DNA of 6,299 bases. It comes from Acidocella sp. 35-58-6 (lineage in GTDB: Bacteria > Pseudomonadota > Alphaproteobacteria > Acetobacterales > Acetobacteraceae). The notes below the pieces were generated by a model that was not told the origin of the DNA, searched no databases, and worked only from the letters and a program-made list of their open reading frames with translations. Each line of letters starts with the position of its first letter. Positions within the stretch are counted from its first letter, which is position 1. The translations under genes and the position numbers were made by a program. The stretch is taken from NCBI GenBank assembly GCA_002281005.1, contig NCFD01000077.1, forward strand, positions 1 to 6,299, in the 5' to 3' direction. This document shows positions 1 to 770 of the stretch, piece after piece.

Positions 1-278
1 GCCCGCATAGTACGAAACATCGGCAGCCTTTGCTCGAATGTGAGCCCGATGGCGGAGTTCACGATGAAAAGTCCCACGGCGAAAGAGAGAAATCCGAATG
101 CAGTCAGATTTAGATGAAAGCTGTCGGTCAAACGCTCAAGACCGCTTTCCGCGTCGGGAGCAACCAACTGCAAACGCTCGCCCGCGATGTCCCGCAAGGG
201 CCGCATGGGCCCGAGAGCCTTCGGCGCAACAAGCAGACGCGAAATTTGATCTGCTTTTCCCAAAGCACGTTGCGCGAC
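1..278 (-). CDS. FtsX/YbbP-type ABC permease segment, fused in frame to MreB N-terminus, partial
   Basis: This is the downstream part (residues 165-256) of a reading frame that starts at 770 as MreB; it is open to the left edge. The residues read as the end of an extracytoplasmic domain (an AQRALGKADQISRLLVAP stretch, then a basic/polar linker), followed by SFHLNLTAFGFLSFAVG and a hydrophobic span at about residues 218-245, then FEQRLPMFRTMR at the cut edge. The pattern 'LTxSFxLNLTA...SFAVGLFIV...EQR.P..RT.RA' is characteristic of large permeases of the FtsX/MacB/YbbP superfamily, which work with an ATPase to move lipids or lipoproteins. The permease's own N-terminus, first membrane helix and most of its periplasmic domain are absent. 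Because MreB is cytoplasmic, this helix would insert in the opposite orientation from a normal permease, so function is doubtful. Family assignment is from memory of the motif; the exact subfamily is unknown. Confidence 0.75.
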
Positions 279-287
279 GCCGATATC
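276..287 (-). other. fusion junction within MreB phosphate-2 motif, on a GATATC hexamer
   Basis: On the minus strand the codons GTG GAT ATC GGC GTC GCG CAA read V-D-I-G-V-A-Q. The first four residues fit MreB (VVDIGGGTT) and the VDIGVAQ/'DI.xAQ..LG' part also fits the permease family, so the two parents probably shared a few bases here. The palindromic hexamer GATATC occupies 282-287. No target-site duplication or insertion-sequence end is visible at the join. The precise breakpoint cannot be placed within the shared bases. Confidence 0.7.
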
Positions 288-770
288 CACCACCATCGAT
301 CCCGAAGGCTCAGTCACCGTCAGGCCGGCGCCAATCGCCGCCGCCATCGGCTCCTCGATCAGCAATACTTTCCGCGCTCCAGCGGATTCCGCGGATTCCT
401 GAATCGCCCGGCGTTCCACCGCGGTCGAGCCGGAGGGGACGCAAATAATAATCAGCGGCGAGGCAAAACCACGGCGATTATGCACCTTGCGGATAAAATG
501 CTTGATCATTTCCTCCGCCACTTCGAAATCGGCGATCACGCCATCCCGCAATGGCCGGATGGCCTGAATATTGCCTGGTGTCCGGCCCAGCATCTGCTTA
601 GCCTCCTCACCCACGGCCAGCACATGCTTGCGGCCCTTCACATCGGCGATAGCGACGACAGACGGCTCAGCGAGCACAATCCCCCGGCCTTTGACATAAA
701 CCAGCGTATTGGCGGTACCGAGGTCGATGGCCATGTCGGCTGACATGATCCCTAGAATTCGAGCAAACAT
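279..770 (-). pseudogene. mreB: mreB, N-terminal 164 residues only (truncated by fusion)
   Basis: MreB is the bacterial actin that organises peptidoglycan synthesis on the inner face of the membrane in rod-shaped cells. Translation from 770 starts MFARILGIMSADMAIDLG, with the phosphate-1 motif DLGTANTLVY at residues 16-25, EPSVVAI at 35-41, the IRPLRDGVIADFE stretch at 71-83, CVPSG at 110-114, and IEEPMAAAIGAGL at 138-150. It then reaches MVVDIG at 159-164, where the phosphate-2 motif (normally DIGGGTT) should follow. Instead the frame continues as permease. Subdomain II, the adenosine motif and the C-terminus are therefore lost; full MreB is about 345 residues, so roughly half is missing and ATP binding and filament formation should fail. 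The start is supported by AAGGA (776-780 on this strand), five bases before ATG, and by the conserved MF..xxG.xSxD N-terminus. mreC, which normally follows, is not seen. leuA nearby suggests this is the native mreB locus. Confidence 0.85.

Follow-up and report, generated by a model that had tools for sequence, protein, structure and literature searches.

An MreB-permease open reading frame at a contig end is most likely a chimera of DNA from two organisms

Organization of the locus

The window, i.e. the whole stretch of DNA that was analysed, is the complete contig C145 of 6,299 bases, which is part of a draft assembly of 445 contigs and 1.89 Mb with a completeness of 73%. Its features are compiled in Table 1. 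On the minus strand, a single stop-free frame spans 770 to 3 and encodes residues 1-164 of MreB, followed by a piece of an FtsX-type permease. A first-pass annotation had described it as an MreB frame that turns into a permease at residue 164 without a stop, and this description was borne out. One correction concerns base 3, where the frame does not terminate: the window comprises the entire contig, and the frame runs off its edge. At the other contig end, a gene resembling thiamine-phosphate synthase (5976-6299) is also cut; its PF02581 match has a score of 26.8 bits, compared with a cut-off of 27. The G+C contents of the two parts of the frame are alike (0.592 and 0.559) and fail to separate them, so that composition was dropped as a separator.

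Table 1. Features of the 6,299-base contig
Feature	Position	Strand	Evidence
5' half of mreB, residues 1-164, host sequence	278..770	-	PF06723, E 1.3e-72; 98% protein identity to G031 and G018
Join zone, 18 bases coding for VVDIG, common to both parent families, includes GATATC at 282-287	278..295	-
Apparently foreign tail, internal piece of a Hyphomicrobiales-type FtsX-type ABC permease, cut by the contig end	1..281	-
Ordinary small gene with a glycine zipper, located between mreB and leuA	1013..1249	+	PF13441, E 4.8e-9
leuA, 2-isopropylmalate synthase, upstream neighbour of mreB	1289..2863	-	PF00682, PF08502
purE and purK, ordinary host genes	3666..5275	+	PF00731 for purE; purK relatives named Acidocella sp.

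The MreB part and its host

Residues 11-165 (counted from MFAR) match the Pfam family MreB_Mbl at positions 2-154 of the 327 profile positions, and the complete actin-like fold of a functional MreB is thus not encoded. Residues 1-164 represent a normal N-terminal half, 98% identical to the MreB proteins of two genomes of the same genus, G031 and G018, which are its closest relatives; in contrast to these, the remainder of the fold is absent from the open frame. A residue-by-residue comparison with eight MreB relatives placed the last MreB residues at D162-I163-G164, after which V165 and A166 depart from the GG of these relatives. The whole frame was also compared at the protein level with 61 genomes (its own, 36 of the same genus, and 24 of the class). 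All strong matches of other genomes end at or before residue 166, and one weak match, on contig C90 of G009, extends across residues 118-210 (36% identity, E 5.7e-4).

At the DNA level, 459 of 496 bases of the mreB half are identical to G018. The differences within the 164 codons are distributed as 4, 0, and 32 over the first, second, and third codon positions, and therefore the MreB half is a gene that is under constraint up to the break. G018 is collinear with positions 275-6268 of the window in a single alignment of 87.1% identity, and the collinearity ends at the join. The alignment with G031 falls into three segments (280-937, 1287-5295, and 5305-6271) of 84-88% identity, and G020 aligns in shorter pieces from 275 onward. 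In both G031 and G018, the order of leuA and mreB is kept and mreB continues intact. The host genus would be Acidocella, judging from purK, the relatives of which have identities of 87-90%, the one at 87% being named Acidocella sp.; in the NCBI taxonomy, this genus sits in the Acetobacterales. A purK protein cluster, P0121, has 99% identity to the purK of the window, and the longest contig listed for it comprises 10,617 bases, more than the present one. MreB residue 151 (window positions 318-320), 14 residues before the join, is a threonine, while 117 of the 120 MreB matches listed have a proline at this position (three were not read); this is either a strain variant or an error.

The permease tail

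The tail was recognized as a piece of an FtsX-type permease by comparison with full-length homologues; taken alone, its 93 residues did not yield a Pfam match. Window positions 3-314 match residues 173-276 of a Hyphomicrobiales FtsX-type ABC permease of 827 amino acids (L018), with 78% identity. This protein carries PF02687 and PF12704, and the tail, including the stretch shared with mreB, equals an internal part of it. In contrast to L018, the tail is devoid of the N-terminal part and of most of the protein: 104 of the 827 residues are present, and these do not make up a complete permease with a periplasmic domain and FtsX domains. In three loci examined, the frame preceding the permease begins like an ABC ATPase, as judged by eye.

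A search with the tail in named genomes led to 303 confirmed loci, of which the best 80 were kept. Among these 80, the best matches are L018, from a Xanthobacteraceae MAG, and L019, from an Afipia MAG, with 82% and 80% protein identity, respectively; both Xanthobacteraceae and Afipia belong to the Hyphomicrobiales (NCBI taxonomy). Most of the 80 loci stem from Bradyrhizobium, and some records carry a name no more precise than a class or an order. The nearest permease DNA is identical to the tail at 210 of 280 bases. One record among the otherwise alphaproteobacterial ones, L058, is titled Frankia sp. RB7 and matches the tail at 70%; it is possibly a mislabelled genome.

Matches to the tail (about 92-93 residues) are missing from all 37 other genomes of the same genus. 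A sample of 385 genomes from across the class contains seven that match the tail, its own genome included; the four genomes listed for other genera in the family of the host are not among them. Three of the matches are strong (74, 60, and 48% identity), all of them in families other than that of the host, and three are weak (30-39%). The two parts of the contig thus differ in taxonomic origin, given the genus name that purK suggests for the host, and the parents appear to be members of different orders, Acetobacterales and Hyphomicrobiales.

Sequence at the join

The earlier assignment of GATATC to 282-287 was confirmed, and the stretch common to both parent families turned out to be longer (278-295). 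At the join, mreB of G018 reads ATGGTGGTGGATATCGGCG, followed by GCGGC, and the permease gene of locus L021 reads CTGGTGGTCGATATCGGCG, followed by TCGCGCAAC. The window tracks the former up to GGCG and the latter from there on. The join therefore lies on sequence that is common to both parents, as judged from relatives of the donor. Both parents encode VVDIG at this site in the same frame, and because of this the join is in frame automatically. The previous estimate that an in-frame join is expected by chance one time in three is thus inapplicable. A cloning origin at an EcoRV site, which had also been considered, is unnecessary and was dropped, because the shared stretch, at about 18 bases, extends beyond GATATC.

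The similarity at the join was evaluated with 858 pairs of genes, i.e. 11 mreB genes combined with 78 of 80 permease genes (two loci were dropped because the motif was missing from a long frame). This count supersedes an earlier one with 77 permeases, in which 287 of 847 pairs had their best match at the junction. In 285 of the 858 pairs, no 20-base match elsewhere in the two complete genes exceeds that in the junction register, and in the other 573 some other window is more alike. The fraction of window pairs that are at least as similar as the junction has a median of 1.2e-5 and a maximum of 0.0032 across the 858 pairs. In a control with codon-shuffled mreB (55 pairs), the best match somewhere in the permease was 15-17 of 20 bases, and the real pairs mostly have 16-18. 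Taken by itself, the degree of similarity at the join thus does not exceed what is expected by chance; it is the place of the match that is telling.

The exact run shared with mreB of G018 at the join is 18 bases for one of the 78 permeases, 17 bases for another one, 13 bases for three, and 10 bases or less for the remaining 73. Common assemblers start from a k-mer of 21 bases. A de Bruijn join via a full shared 21-base k-mer is not demonstrable with these genes, the longest run being 18 bases.

The mreB gene in the genus and in the assembly

Across the 38 genomes of the genus, including its own, the 3' half of mreB is found in full in 29, in part in three, and not at all in six. At least six of the 37 other genomes have a contig end inside mreB (G001, G004, G006, G011, G019, and G023), which marks mreB as a site of breakage in assemblies of this genus. 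In two of them, contigs overlap exactly inside or around the gene, by 99 bases in G011 (C69 and C40) and by 144 bases in G001 (C126 and C139). Exact overlaps are what is seen between contigs that adjoin at a branching point of the assembly graph.

In its own assembly, no match to the 3' half of mreB was retrieved with the query that finds it in 32 of the 38 genomes, and no match to mreC, which is present in 35 of 38. Because the assembly is 73% complete, these absences say little; a missing 3' half is also the outcome that is expected of a real break. The first-pass annotation had proposed that an intact mreB followed by mreC at this locus would reveal an artefact. This test is unsuited to the genus where examined, as the two genes lie apart in G031, G018, and G034: G031 and G018 have them on separate contigs, and about 20 kb lie between them in G034. 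The distances on one contig in G022 and G061 are 71 kb and 80 kb, respectively. Two genomes with completeness values of 99% and 95% (G014 and G015) contain mreC and have no match to mreB, which reflects either an assembly gap at mreB or a loss of the gene.

Search for second copies of the join

Residues 140-257 (numbered from the codon before MFAR) were compared with 5.8 billion proteins; of 8,000 scored candidates, 1,330 passed as hits. Among the best 120 of these hits, the coverage of the query is at most 86%, and therefore none of them takes in the MreB part. In a second protein search, with the MreB part and likewise limited to 8,000 candidates, the join peptide is present in none of the 120 matches listed. 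The 37 further genomes of the genus do not contain this join either, and a literature search for an MreB-FtsX fusion found no paper.

Origin of the join

It is very probable that the join was made by the assembler or during library preparation between DNA molecules of two organisms of one sample. A chimera of this kind is the best explanation because the contig appears to contain DNA of two organisms, the foreign part takes up no more than the terminal ~275 bases, and a stretch common to both underlies the join. At this stretch, a sequencing read, an amplicon or a path in the assembly graph would have crossed from one template to the other, and the real genome would continue into the remainder of mreB. 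Chimeric contigs are a failure of metagenome assembly described in PMC7299287. The present contig resembles the chimeras described there in that sequences of two organisms are united in one contig of a fragmented draft and are joined at a shared stretch. It differs in that the chimeras described in that report involve related species sharing k-mers, or sequencing errors, whereas here the parents seemingly belong to different orders and share only a short stretch.

A quite improbable alternative is a recent horizontal insertion or illegitimate recombination, by which Hyphomicrobiales DNA would have entered mreB of this strain and disabled it. The intact coding sequence in both halves is compatible with such an event, the shared stretch could also have served recombination, and the 3' half of mreB was not found in the assembly. 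Against it, mreB has remained under constraint right up to the break and its 3' half is present, whole or partial, in 32 of the 38 genomes of the genus, while the foreign part sits exactly at the contig end and is found in none of the 37 other genomes. A special form, in which the insertion at the VVDIG codons would have fused MreB in frame to the permease in a lineage on its way to losing the rod-shape system, is very improbable.

A true functional fusion, in which the N-terminal half of MreB would be tethered to a membrane segment of the permease, is extremely doubtful. The single open frame without a stop would fit, but the frame follows automatically from both parents reading VVDIG in that frame, the product would comprise one half of the actin fold plus an internal part of a permease, and the join recurs neither in the best 120 matches of either protein search nor in the 37 genomes. 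A deletion or inversion between mreB and a permease gene of the organism itself, which the shared stretch would permit, is just as remote because the parents appear to be of different orders; moreover, a search with the L018 permease (827 residues) has no further hit in the genome of the contig, where the sole FtsX-family hit (contig C196) is not recovered with it, and yields a single, weak local match in the 37 others (G007, 36%, E 6e-4).

Of the three readings initially proposed, the artefact is thus retained, and neither the rearrangement disabling mreB nor the true fusion is upheld. The MreB-permease fusion is most likely an artefact and not a real gene, and under the chimera reading no fusion protein would be produced by the organism. 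A caution follows: when two unrelated genes happen to specify one short peptide in a common frame, joining them can yield an uninterrupted open frame, and frames of this kind resemble new fusion proteins when they are judged from sequence alone.

The same permease family may be involved in a further join. A contig of 815 bases in a public collection encodes a protein, P0003, in which a TPR-like N-terminus seems to be joined to the permease at LPPLR. The TPR-like match has an E value of 2e-4 and is below the cut-off of Pfam. The number of permeases with an alien N-terminus was considered as a base rate for such joins and rejected: four of 120 permease matches have more than 25 unaligned residues, and P0003 is not flagged among them. 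Most of the matches shown align to P0003 from residue 62 or 63, and a few permeases from residue 24 or 43. P0003 may represent a second, independent chimera; because these few permeases align further into its N-terminus, this is regarded as probable only.
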